From positions 1 through 64,000 of the forward strand of contig JAUIHP010000027.1 of assembly GCA_030431975.1 (NCBI GenBank): a stretch of 64,000 nucleotides of DNA. Reading direction: 5' to 3'. Within the stretch, counting starts at the first letter, position 1. The number at the start of each line of letters is the position of its first letter. This DNA is from a bacterium (GTDB taxonomy: Bacteria > Eisenbacteria > RBG-16-71-46 > CAIMUX01). The notes beneath the pieces were generated by a model, which was not told the DNA's origin, did no database searches, and saw nothing but the letters and a program-made list of their open reading frames with translations. Shown piece after piece: positions 33,405 to 41,640 of this stretch. The translations under genes were made by a program, and so were the position numbers.

Positions 33405-34604
33405 CTAAAGGTGAAACGTTGCGTCGAGACTGAGAACGGGTTCGGTCAGGGACAGATCCGTCCGGATGAGCCCCGCCAATCGAATGTTCTTCCGCTCGTA
33501 CTCTAGTCCCCAGGCAAAGGCGTCCCTCGTCGTCCAACGGGCACGGTAGTTGGAAATGCCGCCTCCCTGTTCGTCGTAGTCGTACACACGCGAGACGCTG
33601 GCATTGATCCGGAGTTGACGGCTGACCTGCGTTGCCACTCCCGTCGAGGTTCGCACGATCCGAGTCTCGAACGACGAGACACCCGGCTCCTGCCCCTCAC
33701 GAGTGAAGACGTTGGACAGGTTGTTTGCGGCATAGTCAACCGCCAGGAAGATCCGACCTCTCTTGCGGTCGTGATTCATGATGACCCCAGCGAATCCGGT
33801 GTGTCCGTACACTTCCCGTGTCCCCGTCTCGGTCAACCCAAGCCTCTCGTACTCGAGCTCCTGACGACGATCGGTGAACCCGCCCATGGCTACGAAGTTG
33901 TTCCGACGTCCGAACTCGGTCCCGAATCGAGCGGCAAATGTGAACCGTGGATCGGTAACGAGCTCGTCCCGATACCGGGGCTCATCCAGCCGCTCGTCGA
34001 CGAGCTTCCGTTCGAAGCTCGGGAAGACGACACCGGCCGTGGCCTCGAAGAACTCGTCGCCTTGGCCGGCCCCGGCGCTGACGCGCGCGTGGAACTCGGA
34101 ACGATCCTGTTCCAGATCCGGCCCGCCGCGGTCTTCCACCGAACCGTCCAGATTGAAGCCCACGCTCAGGCCGAATCGGGAAACGTCGCCGCCTGTGGAG
34201 AAGGCCAGGATCTGCTCCGTCTCGAACGAGTCGAAGGTTGGTCCGCTCGTCGACAGCCAACCGACGGCGTGGTCCTCATTCGCCAACGTCACAATGAAGG
34301 ATTCGTTCTGTTGCAGGTCGAAGGCCGCGATTCCCGTGCGACGTTCCATCCGATGTGGAAAGAGAAACGCTGCTTCATACCCGTCTACCAGAAGAAGTGA
34401 AGACGTCTGGAACGAGCGCGAGCGAGCGCTCGCGACGGGCTCGACCGCAGAAGAAATCGAGGAGTCAAAAGGCGCCGCGACACAGGCTGTGGCCGCAATG
34501 ACAACGGCAATTGTCCTCTGTGCCAGGCCCGTGGAGCGTCGTATAGGCGAGAACAAGTAACAACGAAGACCTGCACCGGCGGCGTTTCCGAAAAGACACA
34601 TCAT
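33405..34604 (-). CDS. Putative outer-membrane beta-barrel protein
   Basis: This 399-residue protein has ATG at 34604 preceded by AAGGAG. A signal peptide lies about 20-50 residues in (RRSTGLAQRTIAVVIAATACVAAP). The mature part alternates short amphipathic strands with turns and ends in DLSLTEPVLSLDATFHL, a terminal strand suited to barrel insertion. Typical strands are GLSVGFNLDGS, FHARVSAGAGQ, FTFAARFGTEFGRRNNFVAMGGF and RGRIFLAVDYAANNLS. No specific porin family is recognised. It is last of a same-strand group with the M28 and M16 genes (142-bp gap) and may be transcribed with them. Confidence 0.65.
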   Translation of the reverse strand: MMCLFGNAAGAGLRCYLFSPIRRSTGLAQRTIAVVIAATACVAAPFDSSISSAVEPVASARSRSFQTSSLLLVDGYEAAFLFPHRMERRTGIAAFDLQQNESFIVTLANEDHAVGWLSTSGPTFDSFETEQILAFSTGGDVSRFGLSVGFNLDGSVEDRGGPDLEQDRSEFHARVSAGAGQGDEFFEATAGVVFPSFERKLVDERLDEPRYRDELVTDPRFTFAARFGTEFGRRNNFVAMGGFTDRRQELEYERLGLTETGTREVYGHTGFAGVIMNHDRKRGRIFLAVDYAANNLSNVFTREGQEPGVSSFETRIVRTSTGVATQVSRQLRINASVSRVYDYDEQGGGISNYRARWTTRDAFAWGLEYERKNIRLAGLIRTDLSLTEPVLSLDATFHL

Positions 34605-34746
34605 GGCAACTCCTTGGATCGACCAGGCCGAGAGGGAAAGCCTGAACCCACAATTCAGGGAGAAACCGTCCCAGGCTTGGAAGCGGACGGTCATCTCCAG
34701 CTATGTTGTGTCCTGGTCCAACCGAAGGGGCAGAGCCTGCTTCCGG

Positions 34747-36333
34747 TCACTGCCCCCGAAACGCGATCTGCTTGTCCATCTGCGACAGCGCTCTCACGAC
34801 ACCGTAGATGTACCGGGCGTTGCGGCCCAACGAACCGAGGTGGATCTTGTCGGGAGTGTCCATGGGTGTCCCGATGTCCCCGGTAGCGCCGCCGAAGAAC
34901 GTCAGCACCGGAACGTCCTTCTTGTAGAACGGAATGTGATCACCGACGTTGGCGACGTCTTTGTCGTTCTTGAGTTCCACCGGCGCCCGAACGTTGTCGT
35001 TGACCAGCTGCAACACCTCGACCAATCCGTCGCCGCTTCCGCTTCCGAACGCATGAAGAGCACTCTGGTTGTTGGTTCCGAGGATGTGCATGTTGACAAA
35101 GGCGGTCATCCGGTCGAACGGCAGGAGGTCGCTTCGGGTCAACGTCTCGGCCCCGGCATGTGTCATGTGGTGTCCGGAGAGCGCGACGAAGTAGACGGTC
35201 TTCTCGGGCTGCGGCATCTTCTTCAGTGCACGCGCCACCTCGATGAGCGTAGCGACGCCGGATGCATTTCCGTTGGCTCCGGGATGAAGCACGGCCACCG
35301 AGTTGTCCGGTCCCATTCCGTAGCCGTCGAAATGCGAGGCCAGGACGACAGCATCCTCCGTCCGACCGGGAATCTTGGCGATGACGTTGGTCAGGACCGA
35401 TTCCAGTCGGCGAAGCTTGACCATCATCTCGACTTTGTTTGGGAGGTCGGAAGACAGCGGCTGGTATCGCTTGTCGATGTCGCGCTGAAGGTTCGCAAGC
35501 TGGACGCCGGCGGGCTCGAGGAGTGACTGCGCTGCGCTCGCGCCCATTTGCACGACCATGATTCCGGTGTTGAGGAAGCCGGCCTCGGAAGAGATGCGCC
35601 AGACCTGATCGGGACGTTTCGCATAGAGCGGCCCCGGCGTCAGGATGAGCCCGGCAGCTCCATGCTCCCGCGCAACTTCGGCTTTCCGGTAGAGATCGCT
35701 GTGAAGCGTCGGGCTGGTTCCATCGAACGGACTGTCCGGATCTCGCATCCCGGGCTCGCCCAGAAACGCCAGAACGATCTTGCCGGTGACATCGAGTCCG
35801 GCGTAGTCGTCGTAGTCGAGATCCGGGGCGGTGATGCCATAGCCGGCGAAAACGAGGTCACCAGTGTGATGTCCGTCTGCGGACATGCCCAAGGGTGTGT
35901 AGTGGACGTTGTACTCGTAGCCGCGGTTCAGGTCTTGAAGGCCGATCACCCCCTGGACGCGAACTCCGCTCGACGCCAAGACACGTTGGGTAAAGCCGTC
36001 CCGGCCCGCGGGCTCGAGACCCATATCCTCGAACTGCTCCCGGATGTATTCGGCGGCCTTGGCGGCACCTTCCGAACCGGCGGAGCGGCCTTGAAGGTCT
36101 TCCGAGGCGAGGAAGTTCACGTGTTTCATCATGGCCGACGTCTCGATGCTGGATGCTCCGACGGCGACTTCCCGCCCCGACGACTGGGCCAGGGCCCAAC
36201 CCGGAGCGAATCCGATCGAAACTGTGGCAACCGTGGTGACCATCGCTGCCGTGGCGGCCATAGCTACCGTCGCGGCCGGGGCGACCCTCGCGTATGCCGC
36301 CGCCATGACGTCCCGAACCCCCGAAACCCTCAT
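34747..36333 (-). CDS. M28-family peptidase homologue lacking most zinc ligands (probable pseudoenzyme)
   Basis: This 528-residue protein has ATG at 36333 after AAGGAG. It has a signal peptide and a PA-type insert (VTGKIVLAFLGEPG... EHGAAGLILTPGP). The M28 core aligns clearly to active homologues, but metal ligands are changed. ASHFD keeps the first His. PGANGNASG has Gly where the bridging Asp is expected. VALSGHHMTHAG has HH where active enzymes have the catalytic and metal-binding EE. VNMHILG has His for the Asp ligand, and GTPMDTPDK lacks the final His. The scaffold (FVxLSG, NASGVATLIEVARAL, TPDKI) is intact. The protein is probably exported and folded but not a normal aminopeptidase. It follows the M16 gene by 32 bp. 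Confidence 0.85.
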   Translation of the reverse strand: MRVSGVRDVMAAAYARVAPAATVAMAATAAMVTTVATVSIGFAPGWALAQSSGREVAVGASSIETSAMMKHVNFLASEDLQGRSAGSEGAAKAAEYIREQFEDMGLEPAGRDGFTQRVLASSGVRVQGVIGLQDLNRGYEYNVHYTPLGMSADGHHTGDLVFAGYGITAPDLDYDDYAGLDVTGKIVLAFLGEPGMRDPDSPFDGTSPTLHSDLYRKAEVAREHGAAGLILTPGPLYAKRPDQVWRISSEAGFLNTGIMVVQMGASAAQSLLEPAGVQLANLQRDIDKRYQPLSSDLPNKVEMMVKLRRLESVLTNVIAKIPGRTEDAVVLASHFDGYGMGPDNSVAVLHPGANGNASGVATLIEVARALKKMPQPEKTVYFVALSGHHMTHAGAETLTRSDLLPFDRMTAFVNMHILGTNNQSALHAFGSGSGDGLVEVLQLVNDNVRAPVELKNDKDVANVGDHIPFYKKDVPVLTFFGGATGDIGTPMDTPDKIHLGSLGRNARYIYGVVRALSQMDKQIAFRGQ

Positions 36334-36365: not shown

Positions 36366-39137
36366 CTATTCCGCAAACGTCCCGGCCAGAACGACGACGA
36401 ATCGCCCGGAACCGGTCACCGCTGCCGTCGCAGATTTGACCTCATCCAGCTTCTGCGAGCGAATCCTTTCGCCGAATCGGTCGACGTAGTCGGCGCCCAG
36501 CCCCAAACGTTCGGCCCGGAGCAACGCTCCGGCAATTTCCGGCTTGGTGCTGACCCGAATCGGGTAGGAACCGGCCTCGTACTCCATGGCCTTCTCGAAC
36601 TCGGGCGCGGTGATTTCACCGCCGCCGTCCGACAAGGCCGCAAAGATCGTCTCGACCCCGTCGACTGCGGCCGTCACGTTGTCGGGATGGACGCCCAGGG
36701 CCGCGTGAAATCGCCCCTGCCCCGGCAGGTTCTCGAACCAGCTGGATGCACCGTAGGTCAGTCCCTGATCATCACGCAACGAACGGTTCAGGCGGGAGGT
36801 AAAAGCTCCCCCGACGACCACATTTCCTAGATACCCGGCTTCGTATTCCGGAGTTCCGGGAGCGGGCCCCGGTCCGACGAAGACGATGTCGACCTGGGAC
36901 CGATCCTCCATCGGTACACGGATGATCGTGGGCTCCTCCGGAAAGCTCGCCTCCGGCGCCTCCAGCGAAAGCGGCGTTCCTGCAGGCAAGTTCGCCAGGG
37001 CGCGGGACAGGCCTTTCCGCGCGTCTTCCGCGGTGACATCACCTACGACAGCAAAGGTCCAGCGCGCGCCGTGGAGCAGCTCGTCATGAAACGTCCGGGC
37101 GTCCGCGGCGGTCAGCGACCGGATCCCCTCTTCGGTACCCGCCGTGTAGCGAGCCAGCGGCGAGTCCTCGCCGTAGATTTCGGAGAGCGCCCGGCGGTAG
37201 GCGACGGTGTAGGTCTCACCCTTGTCTTCCTTGAGCTGGGACAACTGACGCACCCTGGCCTGTTCGACAACGTCGGGATCGAAGCGGGGCCGCAGAATGA
37301 CGTCGCCGAGAATGTCCCACAGTGATTCCAGGTCTTCGCTGAGACAGCGTGCACGCAGTTCGATCCCGTCGGGACCGGCCCAGAATTCCAAATCGATCCC
37401 CAGGGACTCGACATACTCCGAGAACTCCTGCGCGGACCGTTCACCGGCTCCCGAGACGAGAGTCTCCGCGACGAGTGAAGCGACGCCTTCCTTTCCTTTC
37501 GGTTCCAGAAACAGACCACCGTCGACTCGGGCCCGCAGCCCCACGGTTGGGTTGGCGTGGCTCTCCTTGATGAGCAGGGTGACGCCATTGTCCAGAACCT
37601 GGCGTTCGGTCGAGACTTCGGTCTGAGCCAACGCTCCCCCTGCACTCTGTCGACCTCGGTGATCGCTGCGGGCACGCGCTCCCGACCCAACACCTCGCAC
37701 GTCAGACCTTCCCGCCGGTCCCGGGCGATCATCTTCTTCCCGCTCGATCCAACCGCCGGACTCCTGTCCGCGCGGAAGATAGAAACCGACGGTCCGGCTG
37801 TCCGCATGGAAGTACTTGCGGACGACACGAGTCACGTCCTCCGGAGTCACCGCGCCCAAGTCATCGAGGTAATTCTCGTGCAGCGCGTACCCGCCGACCG
37901 TTTCCGCCTCCCCGATCGAGAACATGAGATTGACGATGTCGTCGTAGGAAAACAGCGTTTCGACGCGCGCGCGCTTTCGTACGCGAGCCATCTCTTCGGC
38001 CGTGGGCGGCGTCTCGCGAAAGCGATCGAGTTCTTCATAGATTGCGGACTCGACCGCGTCCGGATTCGCTTCCTCGGTCAACATCGCGTAGACAAAGAAG
38101 AGATAGGGATCGGCCATGGGCTGGTTGTAGGCAGCGATCCAAACCGCTTCCCCGCTTTCGACGAGACGAGACTCCAGCCGACTGGCTTTGCCGTCCGAAA
38201 GCAACCGACCCAGGACATCGAGCGCCGCGCTGTCGGCATGATTTCGTTCGGGAGTCCGGAAAGCCATGCCCAGAAGCCGCGAGTTTCCATTCTCCCGAAT
38301 GAGGAAACGCCGCTCACCCTTCTGCGGTGGCTCCTGTGTCACGACTTGAAACTCGGAACGTCCGGGTTCGATGTCGGCAAAATGCTTTTCTGCCGTGGCC
38401 AGCATTTCCTCGGGAGGAACGTCCCCGAGAATGAGAAGGAACGCGTTGTCCGGACGGTAGAACGCGTTGTAGTAGTCGTGAATCTGTTCGGCGGTGGTGG
38501 CCTCGACGTCACTCTTCCAACCGATCGTCGGCCAGTGATACGGATGTTCCAGAATCGCGACAGAGCCGATCCGTTCGTCCAACTCGGTCCAGGGATCGTC
38601 CTCGCCCTTTTCCATCTCGTTGCGGACGACCGGCATCTCATCTTCCAGGTCCTGATCGGTGAAGAGAGCTCCGCGCATTCGGTCCGCTTCGAGCTCGAGC
38701 AGAAGATCGAGTTTGTCCTTGGCGATGACGGCGTAGTAGTTGGTTCGATCGAGCCAGGTCGTTGCGTTGTTCAGACCGCCGTTGGCCTCGAGCAGGTCGT
38801 CATAGACACCCTTGCCGTAGCGTGCGGTGCCTTTGAACATCATGTGTTCGAGCAGATGAGCCAACCCGGTCGTCCCGTTGGACTCGTGCTTCGTGCCGGC
38901 CTGATACCAGATCGACGCGCAAACGATCGGCGAGGTCGTGACCTCTTTCATAAGGATGCGCAGGCCGTTGTCGAGCTCGGCTTCGTAGATTCCGCTCGGC
39001 GAGGGGCCGGTCAGTTCGGCGGCATTCGCGGGAAGCCCGGCACTGACGAGGCCAAGCAGGTTCAGCAAGAGTGCAAGGCCGACAATCCGTCCCCCACGAG
39101 CGTCGCTGGAGGGATTGGCACAGCCGTTCCTGATCAT
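36366..39137 (-). CDS. M16 (insulinase/pitrilysin) zinc protease, two fused halves
   Basis: This 923-residue protein starts at ATG 39137 with AAGGAG about 9 bases upstream, in preference to longer frames. A signal peptide (RIVGLALLLNLLGLVSAGLPANA) targets the periplasm. The first half carries the inverted zinc motif GLAHLLEHMMFKGT (HxxEH) and a downstream ELEADRM with the third ligand Glu. The second half (from VLDNGVTLLIKES) lacks HxxEH and is the usual inactive M16C partner. Between them lies an Arg/Gly-rich linker (REEDDRPGPAGRSDVRGVGSG). The two halves form a clamshell that degrades unfolded peptides. It is the promoter-proximal gene of M16-M28-barrel and is divergent from the HEAT-cyclophilin gene. 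Confidence 0.9.
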   Translation of the reverse strand: MIRNGCANPSSDARGGRIVGLALLLNLLGLVSAGLPANAAELTGPSPSGIYEAELDNGLRILMKEVTTSPIVCASIWYQAGTKHESNGTTGLAHLLEHMMFKGTARYGKGVYDDLLEANGGLNNATTWLDRTNYYAVIAKDKLDLLLELEADRMRGALFTDQDLEDEMPVVRNEMEKGEDDPWTELDERIGSVAILEHPYHWPTIGWKSDVEATTAEQIHDYYNAFYRPDNAFLLILGDVPPEEMLATAEKHFADIEPGRSEFQVVTQEPPQKGERRFLIRENGNSRLLGMAFRTPERNHADSAALDVLGRLLSDGKASRLESRLVESGEAVWIAAYNQPMADPYLFFVYAMLTEEANPDAVESAIYEELDRFRETPPTAEEMARVRKRARVETLFSYDDIVNLMFSIGEAETVGGYALHENYLDDLGAVTPEDVTRVVRKYFHADSRTVGFYLPRGQESGGWIEREEDDRPGPAGRSDVRGVGSGARARSDHRGRQSAGGALAQTEVSTERQVLDNGVTLLIKESHANPTVGLRARVDGGLFLEPKGKEGVASLVAETLVSGAGERSAQEFSEYVESLGIDLEFWAGPDGIELRARCLSEDLESLWDILGDVILRPRFDPDVVEQARVRQLSQLKEDKGETYTVAYRRALSEIYGEDSPLARYTAGTEEGIRSLTAADARTFHDELLHGARWTFAVVGDVTAEDARKGLSRALANLPAGTPLSLEAPEASFPEEPTIIRVPMEDRSQVDIVFVGPGPAPGTPEYEAGYLGNVVVGGAFTSRLNRSLRDDQGLTYGASSWFENLPGQGRFHAALGVHPDNVTAAVDGVETIFAALSDGGGEITAPEFEKAMEYEAGSYPIRVSTKPEIAGALLRAERLGLGADYVDRFGERIRSQKLDEVKSATAAVTGSGRFVVVLAGTFAE

Positions 39138-39233
39138 CTCGATAACTCCTTCCATGGAGGTTCGCCCGGTCGCGGAAAAAGGAGAGTAGCCTGCCTCCCG
39201 AGCGGTGAGAAACCCTCCATTCGGGCTCACGTT

Positions 39234-39251
39234 CGGTGTCACATGACACCG
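39234..39251. promoter_or_regulatory. Palindrome in divergent promoter region
   Basis: CGGTGTCA-CA-TGACACCG is a perfect 8-bp inverted repeat midway between the divergent M16 and HEAT-cyclophilin starts, 97 bp upstream of one and 191 bp upstream of the other. It suits a shared dimeric regulator. Confidence 0.45.
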
Positions 39252-39345
39252 GGGGCTCGGTGAGGGAGACCGGTCCCGCATCTCCCACCAGGCGCCCGGT
39301 GGGAGAAACCGTTCCCGCATGTCGCACCGGGCGCTCGGCGGCGTG
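39243..39345. repeat. Degenerate ~39-bp tandem repeat
   Basis: Two and a half imperfect copies begin at about 39243, 39281 and 39320. They share AT(G/C)(A/T)C(A/C/G)CACC, GCTCGGTG-like and CCGTTCCCGC blocks. With the palindrome at 39234-39251 this is all I see in the 304-bp spacer 39138-39441. Confidence 0.6.
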
Positions 39346-39441
39346 TCGGCACAATCCCCCTTGGGGTGTCCTCAGAGCTTGCCTCGTCTTTAGAGGATGG
39401 GCACCCTCTCCAGAAGCCGTTTCGGCCAAGGAGGCGCACAA

Positions 39442-41640
39442 ATGAAACGATTCCCGGATGTCACCACGCTCACCCCGAAGAGAACCGGCCTTACCGCCGG
39501 CATGATCGGGCTCGCGGTTCTGATCTCCGAGCCCGTCGATGTCGTGGAGCGGGGTTTGGGACTTGGAATGGGCTCCGGTTCGACCGCCTGGGCCATGGAC
39601 CGGGAGACCGAAGCCCGGATCATCGCGCAGGAAGACCGTCGGGAAGTCGACGCCACGTTGCTCGACCTCTTGAGCCACGAGGACGCGAAGACCCGGGGCC
39701 GCGCCGCTCTCGCCCTCGGTCGGATCGGCCGCAGCGAGGACGTTGCCCGGCTGGCCTCCGTTTTGCAGGACGAAGACGCGGGGGTCCGAGAATGGGCGGC
39801 CTTCGCTCTGGGTGAAATCGAGGACTCGACCGCAGCCATGATCCTGGAGACCCACCTCGTCTCGGGGCACGAGCAGAATCCGGTCGTTCGGGAACTGGCC
39901 GTTGAAGGTCTGGGCAAGCTGGGGCGCGGAAAGGAAGGTTGCCTGGCCGCCCTGCGCGACGGAAGTGAGCAGGTCCAGGCGCGGGCTCTTCTGGCCGCCT
40001 GGAGAATTCCGGGAGCCACGCCCGTCGACGAGATCCTGCAGATGTCGAACCACAAGAAGGACGAACTTCGCTGGACCGCAGCCTACTGCCTGATGCGAAT
40101 GGCCGGCGCGCCGGCCTCGGGCCGGACGGCCATTCCGGAGGGGGAGGAGCTGAGTGACGACGACAAGACACGAATCGCGGATCGCCTGCTCGAGATGACT
40201 CAGGAGGAGGACGCCCGAGTCCTGATGCAAGCCCTTCGAGGGCTACGGACCCGACCCGACGAAAAGGTGACGGCACGACTTCTGGAAATGGCCGACCACA
40301 GGGACTGGCGCGTTCGCGTCGAAACGTGGCGTGCGCTGACGGGGACGGAGGAGCCGCGCCAGATTCCGAACACCACGTGGAGTACGGGCCTGGAAGACTC
40401 GCAGCCAAACGTCGTGGCCGTCGTGGTCGAGGCGCTGGCCAAGGCCTCCGTCGCCCAGTTCGCGGAGACGCAGCTGCAACGCTTCCTCGGCGACGAGCGT
40501 CCGAGAATTCGCGAACTCGCCGTCGGCGCGTGGGCGGCGCGACTTCGTTCCATCGAGGCGCAGGACTCCGATGAGATAGAGGCAAAACTCACCTCGTTCT
40601 TCAAGGCAGTCGAACCGCTTCGATCCGACCCGCAATGGACCGTCCGCGCCGCCTGCATCGGCCTGACCGACCTTCTCCCCGAAGAACAGCGCGGCGACTT
40701 TCTGCGGCCCCTGACCGAGGACGTTCCCGCCGTGGCCAAGCTCGCCGTCGGCCCGTATCTCGAGTGGAAGGCTTCGTCGAAAGACGGAATCATTTCGCAG
40801 GACGTGCTTCAGCCTGAACTGGACCGATTCCTGGAAGCGGACGACCCGATGGTGGTCCTGATGGCCATGGGTAAGCTGACCGAACTCTTCGAAGCCGAGG
40901 AAGCGGACTCGACGACCGGAACGCCGGATTGGGCTCCGGTGGCCACCACAATAAAAAACGTTCGCGACCGAGCCCAGGATCCCCTCTGGTCGGACGTTCG
41001 GCAGGCCATCGCCGGAGAGGCCGGCAAGCATCTCGAACAACCGGGGATGCGCGACCTGGTCGACGCGGCCCTCGACGACCCAAGCTTCGTCGTACGTCGA
41101 GAAGCCGTCCAGGCACTGGAAGAAGCCGGAGAAACCCCGAGGCGGCAGGCCGAACCGATCGACGCCCGCCACTCCCACTCGGATTACCTCCGGATCCTCG
41201 AGTGGGCAGCGAAAGACCACCGCCTGGTCATCGAAACCGACGCCGGCACGCTGGAGGCCCGACTCTTCAGCGCAGACGCCCCGATGACCTGCTGGAACCT
41301 GGCCCAGCTTGCGCAAACGGGATATTTCGACGACGGCGCCTGGCACCGGGTCGTCCCCAACTTCGTTCTGCAGGACGGATGCCCCCGCGGAGACGGTTGG
41401 GGCGGCCCCGGGCACGAGATCCGCTGCGAAATCAACCGCCACCGCTACCAAAGAGGCGCTCTGGGCATGGCGCTGGCCGGCAAGGACACGGGCGGAAGCC
41501 AGTTTTTCTTCACCCACTCGTCGCAACCACACCTCGACGGCGGCTACACCGTCTTCGGCGAAATCGTGCGAGGCCGCGACGTGGCCGATCGCGTCGCACA
41601 GGGAGACGGAATTCAACGCATACGCGTGGTCAACGATTGA
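39442..41640 (+). CDS. HEAT-repeat protein fused to a cyclophilin-type peptidyl-prolyl isomerase
   Basis: This 732-residue protein has ATG at 39442 after AAGGAGG. A hydrophobic N-terminal stretch (GLTAGMIGLAVLISE) may export or anchor it. Residues ~60-560 are HEAT-like repeats (TRGRAALALGRIGRSEDVARLASVL, VREWAAFALGEI, VRELAVEGLGKL). The C-terminal ~165 residues are a cyclophilin: APMTCWNLAQLAQTGYFDDGAWHRVVPNFVLQDGCPRGDGWGGPG and GGSQFFFTHSSQPHLDGGYTVFGEIV. The key catalytic Arg sits in HRVVPNFVLQ. HEAT repeats would bind a client and the isomerase would act on its proline bonds, a plausible envelope folding factor. It is divergent from the M16 protease gene. Confidence 0.88.
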   Translation: MKRFPDVTTLTPKRTGLTAGMIGLAVLISEPVDVVERGLGLGMGSGSTAWAMDRETEARIIAQEDRREVDATLLDLLSHEDAKTRGRAALALGRIGRSEDVARLASVLQDEDAGVREWAAFALGEIEDSTAAMILETHLVSGHEQNPVVRELAVEGLGKLGRGKEGCLAALRDGSEQVQARALLAAWRIPGATPVDEILQMSNHKKDELRWTAAYCLMRMAGAPASGRTAIPEGEELSDDDKTRIADRLLEMTQEEDARVLMQALRGLRTRPDEKVTARLLEMADHRDWRVRVETWRALTGTEEPRQIPNTTWSTGLEDSQPNVVAVVVEALAKASVAQFAETQLQRFLGDERPRIRELAVGAWAARLRSIEAQDSDEIEAKLTSFFKAVEPLRSDPQWTVRAACIGLTDLLPEEQRGDFLRPLTEDVPAVAKLAVGPYLEWKASSKDGIISQDVLQPELDRFLEADDPMVVLMAMGKLTELFEAEEADSTTGTPDWAPVATTIKNVRDRAQDPLWSDVRQAIAGEAGKHLEQPGMRDLVDAALDDPSFVVRREAVQALEEAGETPRRQAEPIDARHSHSDYLRILEWAAKDHRLVIETDAGTLEARLFSADAPMTCWNLAQLAQTGYFDDGAWHRVVPNFVLQDGCPRGDGWGGPGHEIRCEINRHRYQRGALGMALAGKDTGGSQFFFTHSSQPHLDGGYTVFGEIVRGRDVADRVAQGDGIQRIRVVND

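Follow-up and report, generated by a model that had tools for sequence, protein, structure and literature searches.

The window, the whole 64,000-nucleotide stretch of DNA that was analysed, carries on its minus strand a gene for an M28-like protein directly behind the gene of an intact M16 protease. The features of this locus are listed below.

33405..34694, minus strand: 429-aa protein downstream of the M28-like gene on the same strand, no Pfam match
34747..36333, minus strand: gene of the M28-like putative pseudopeptidase, 528 aa, ATG at 36333, TGA at 34747-34749
36187..36333, minus strand: likely signal peptide, residues 1-49, ending in ALA before Q (sequence read by eye)
35635..35865, minus strand: PA domain, residues 157-233 (Pfam PF02225, 3.6e-5)
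34804..35388, minus strand: Peptidase_M28 domain, residues 316-510 (Pfam PF04389, 7e-28; AlphaFold2 (AF2) and Foldseek)
36366..39320, minus strand: intact fused M16 protease, 984 aa (Pfam M16/M16_C), with its stop lying 32 nt before the M28-like ATG

The PF04389 score of 98.1 bits against a gathering cut-off of 21.3 identifies the protein as an M28 homologue by sequence, and its predicted fold agrees. A Shine-Dalgarno sequence rated good (AAGGAG, 36342-36337) lies within the 32 nt between the M16 stop and the M28-like ATG. The codon-position GC of the M28-like gene is 0.66/0.45/0.77, and its GC3 of 0.77 compares with 0.71-0.80 in the neighbours, indicating a normal codon composition. A plus-strand reading of 34747-36333 was ruled out by a stop in that strand. 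Based on its signal peptide, the M28-like protein is predicted to be exported. The genome also contains other, canonical M28 paralogues. The M16 protease carries HLLEH at residue 155, in its N-terminal half only, and the earlier note was right that an intact M16 gene immediately precedes the M28-like gene; the two are probably on one transcript. Judged by its sequence, the 429-aa downstream protein is a possible outer-membrane beta-barrel. Divergent from the M16 gene, at 39397-41640, is a gene whose product joins HEAT repeats to a cyclophilin-type peptidyl-prolyl isomerase at the C terminus (HEAT-PPIase).

To describe the altered site we use the numbering of the Aeromonas/Vibrio aminopeptidase (AAP), whose zinc ligands we take to be H97, D117 (bridging), E152, D179 and H256, with E151 as the general base. 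The AAP numbering was placed by counting along the AAP sequence, and the residues of the M28-like protein were mapped onto it by homologue alignment, with the following result.

35323..35337, minus strand: SHFDG, with H334 (AAP H97) and D336 (D99) retained
35257..35280, minus strand: GANGNASG, residues 352-359, bridging D117 replaced by G355
35149..35178, minus strand: SGHHMTHAGA, residues 386-395, general base E151 replaced by H388 and ligand E152 by H389, with an extra H392
35077..35094, minus strand: NMHILG, residues 414-419, ligand D179 replaced by H416
34843..34875, minus strand: IGTPMDTPDKI, residues 487-497, ligand H256 replaced by G488, also Y487I

Only one of the five zinc ligands survives (H97, as H334), and the general base Glu is replaced as well; the M28-like protein thus has neither the five ligands nor the Glu general base of the co-catalytic zinc M28 enzymes. 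Three acidic positions (E151, E152 and D179) are replaced by His. The earlier note had taken the protein for an M28 homologue whose zinc site is replaced, and this is what we find, with its four motifs exactly as quoted; a fifth motif, in which AHYDH of the relatives becomes SHFDG, was absent from its list. Its change of GADD to GANG stands as a motif but not as the replacement of a ligand by Asn. The metal ligand of GADD is the second Asp, so that the bridging ligand is now Gly355. The D-to-N change affects a residue that is not a ligand, and two canonical homologues (L006 and L035) combine GAND with an ordinary EE pair.

At the same alignment positions, every close homologue has GADDNASG, xGEE, NxDMVG and YHxPSDT with all ligands retained, and the alignment is therefore sound. 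The earlier note had named misalignment, or a complete ligand set elsewhere, as a risk; both were ruled out, as the motifs align gap-free against 25+ relatives. Five codons, those for the lost ligands and the general base, were each changed separately and in frame, and the reading frame is open; because the substitutions are separate and in frame, a frameshift or assembly error was ruled out as the cause of the loss. Elsewhere among the M28 proteins, a clade from the source genome's own order (L132, L134, L143 and L137) has Ser or Asn at H256 (e.g. PHEDYSKVSDE) and retains the other ligands.

How far the divergence extends was measured against 19 canonical relatives, among which 66 columns are invariant. 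The M28-like protein departs at 20 of these, all among the 49 columns of the catalytic part and none among the 17 of the N-terminal part (Fisher p=0.0014), and most of the 20 departures fall in the active-site motifs. Within the motifs, identity between the M28-like protein and canonical relatives is 0.33-0.40, whereas canonical pairs share 0.58-0.81. For the remaining catalytic domain the values are 0.28-0.35 versus 0.24-0.44 between canonical pairs, and for the N-terminal part 0.25-0.40 versus 0.21-0.39. By these comparisons the replacement appears unusually clean and restricted to the active site, a pattern that argues for a loss of ancestral constraint at the active site alone and against general decay. 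The earlier suggestion that the framework is retained under selection rather than decaying gains support in the same way, with 17/17 N-terminal invariants kept and divergence limited to the active site.

The AF2 model, built from a 38-sequence alignment, has a confident catalytic core, with pLDDT exceeding 80 in most blocks beyond residue 311; the PA region is poor. Foldseek matched it to the M28 aminopeptidases 1QQ9 (E 5e-14), 6HC7 and 1AMP with probability 1.0, and the matches include glutaminyl cyclases and the inactive transferrin receptor, the latter also with probability 1.0. In the predicted structure, the M28 fold is retained despite the site changes.

The closest homologues, found in 47 genomes of the phylum, are up to 39% identical and all canonical. 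No orthologue with the altered site was present in these 47 genomes, where the HH pattern occurs in the source genome only, and two genomes of the same family yielded no orthologue of the M28-like protein. A search of 132 genomes of one other phylum and four of another found nothing closer, and a sample of 385 genomes, which had the source genome at its centre and reached across the domain, contained no orthologue; the new matches in both were canonical. A contig search with patterns taken from the M28-like protein alone gave no matches, the patterns being too protein-specific. We also scanned the DNA of 84,980 species with a pattern that required plain starting bases and accepted only CAC-CAC codons, so that GHH proteins encoded with CAT would be missed, and the full change set was not recovered. 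The scan returned 47 stretches, from which BLAST left a few true GHH M28 proteins: L061, L069 and L081 from Acidobacteriota and L045 from Bacteroidia. The last (L045:3257-4138) is a small M28 protein with AYSDG, GADANASG, DGHH, NLDQIG and NKPADT, another His-His M28 that lacks H97, D117 and H256.

In the tree, the M28-like protein sits on a long branch of ~1.1 substitutions per site. On conservation of the altered site between species, the sets searched contain no orthologue, and the loss pattern points to constraint in the rest of the protein. The earlier note had proposed a search for homologues with an SGHH-type site and had counted restriction to a single genome against its idea. The search returned no orthologue, but it did uncover GHH at E151-E152 in an acidobacterial subfamily; across everything searched, the full change set occurs in one genome only. 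The combination of altered positions is a new one and has so far been found once.

The acidobacterial GHH subfamily comprises L061, L069, L081 and L228-L237, 13 members from five genomes with several paralogues per genome. They are 31-52% identical to L069, for which no NCBIfam match was found. L061 has an Abhydrolase_10 domain N-terminal to M28, and L081 has an N-terminal region of similar length. All 13 members keep HxD, D117, His-His at E151-E152 and NxEH at D179, and H256 is kept in all 12 whose sequence extends that far. The M28-like protein resembles them in HxDG (present in most members), in GHH at E151-E152 and in a His at or beside D179. In contrast, the acidobacterial proteins retain D117 and H256, have Glu at 179, lack the loop before GADD and are distant in sequence, whereas the M28-like protein is without D117, E179 and H256 and has a long pre-GADD loop; it does not belong to the subfamily. 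The best tree, computed with the motifs masked, separates it from the acidobacterial GHH clade. On the basis of the tree and the loop, independent origins of the two HH pairs are favoured; a joint clade was not rejected (AU p=0.087), which leaves them unproven. In the open-access literature we found no account of an M28 site with His-His. Being common to paralogues and species, the acidobacterial site is directly testable, and this subfamily is possibly a better target than the M28-like protein of the window.

By the earlier note, a conserved subfamily found beside M16 every time would define a new pair; the neighbourhoods of relatives do not bear this out. No M16 gene was found near the M28 gene of 15 of the closest relatives in the flanking DNA at hand, and the M16 homologues inspected in six genomes of the same order have no M28 beside them either, some of the contigs being short. 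In one genome (G005) M16 is followed 7 kb downstream by a canonical M28 gene, and four genes on the opposite strand separate the two. There, HEAT-PPIase, M16, canonical M28 and a transketolase/PDH-like gene lie within ~17 kb, the same neighbourhood as in the window, which may mean that an active M28 once stood here and was displaced by the M28-like gene or gave rise to it. The pair of HEAT-PPIase and M16 is retained in G005 and G004. Both here and in G005, M16 is made as one fused polypeptide. In G010 it appears split into an active and an inactive half encoded by neighbouring ORFs, and elsewhere in the order the halves appear in separate frames.

Taken together, our preferred reading, to which we give a probability of about 0.6, is an exported M28-fold pseudopeptidase that has had its di-zinc site dismantled and acts by binding, a role as partner of M16 being one option. 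The protein would descend from an active M28 aminopeptidase with a PA domain, a type common in the phylum, and its two-zinc site would have lost the general base and four ligands, the bridging Asp among them. With D117, E152, D179 and H256 gone besides E151, there is no known route to a co-catalytic site. The substitutions, the fold and the active-site-specific divergence are directly apparent from the alignments and the model; from family chemistry we strongly infer the loss of di-zinc catalysis, and the protein would not be expected to cleave peptides through the co-catalytic zinc mechanism of M28. Since nearly every zinc-holding residue is swapped, binding rather than cutting is probable, and a peptide or protein partner could be held by the retained fold, the PA domain and the cleft. 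One plausible job, at which we can guess because the gene lies just behind that of M16, would be to assist the M16 protease, either as a partner without catalysis of its own or by capturing peptides for it. A binding pseudopeptidase is favoured by the replacement of 4/5 ligands and the general base where close homologues keep all, by divergence in the motifs with the N-terminal invariants intact, by the confident M28 core and its match to the inactive transferrin receptor, by the precedent of non-peptidase M28 homologues and by the canonical paralogues in the same genome. Against it counts that, with no orthologue in the sets searched, the altered state cannot be seen to be conserved, which is how a selected pseudoenzyme is usually proved; the M16 association is not conserved either, and the clustered His residues of the old cleft might bind metal.

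The last point leads to the main rival, a rebuilt His-rich mononuclear metal site of H334, H389, H416 and perhaps H388/H392 in a metal binder or an enzyme of new chemistry, which from the sequence we consider a serious but rather unlikely possibility. Both a binding role and a His-rich metal site had been offered in the earlier note. The three acidic positions became His and not random residues, and the change of the bridging Asp to Gly makes room. Single-zinc M28-fold proteins with non-canonical ligands have precedents in the DUF4910 protein CA_C2195 (PMC4000134) and the glutaminyl cyclases (PMC7522609), and the distant acidobacterial subfamily conserves GHH and NxEH in 13/13 members. However, H256 is now Gly, the His set is not backed by any conserved orthologue, and the acidobacterial proteins, as they keep D117 and H256, would have a metal site unlike that of the M28-like protein. 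A broader proposal, that M28-fold proteins have repeatedly moved to His-His, as HxD/GHH/NxEH in Acidobacteriota and again here, to form a His-dominated mononuclear site of undescribed chemistry, seems doubtful to us.

Relaxed selection, in which function was lost recently and the gene is decaying behind a still open frame, would fit the occurrence in one genome, the long branch and the two same-family genomes without an orthologue. A neutral gene on so long a branch would have gained stops, though, and here the frame, Shine-Dalgarno sequence, signal peptide, N-terminal invariants and codon composition are intact with the loss limited to the active site. With frame and scaffold intact on that branch, we judge decay decidedly improbable. 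That the protein is still an aminopeptidase with its changes tolerated is hardly credible: the AAP E151H mutant, which shares the His at the general base, is functional according to the title of PDB 2anp and to Bzymek et al. 2005 as cited in PMC3426542, so that H388 by itself is not decisive, but E151H leaves all five ligands intact, whereas here D117, which bridges both metals, E152, D179 and H256 are lost too.

Among known systems, the closest sequences found are canonical PA-domain M28 aminopeptidases of the phylum (L009, L010 and L011; 36-38% identity). They have the same domain order and share the pre-GADD loop G..G..S[LV]A..H.GA, but they keep five ligands and the general base and have no M16 neighbour. 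Transferrin receptors 1 and 2 have the M28 fold but no functional two-zinc site and act by binding, as we propose here; they are eukaryotic with another architecture, and TfR1 is a fold match only. Nicastrin and nicalin are further non-peptidase M28 homologues. MEROPS holds more than 550 such homologues, of which few are characterised, those having other functions (PMC4000134). Like the M28-like protein, CA_C2195 has an M28-related fold with the usual catalytic residues replaced. It differs in binding a single Zn by His189/Asp195/His324 and in having a DUF2172 insert and a wHTH and no PA domain (PMC4000134), and DUF4910 (PF16254) was not among the Pfam matches listed for the M28-like protein up to E 10. 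The single-zinc ligands of the glutaminyl cyclase type (the D117, E152 and H256 positions) are all three replaced. Non-peptidase M28 homologues are thus a known kind; what is unusual in this one is so clean a replacement, limited to the active site, in which three acidic positions became His.
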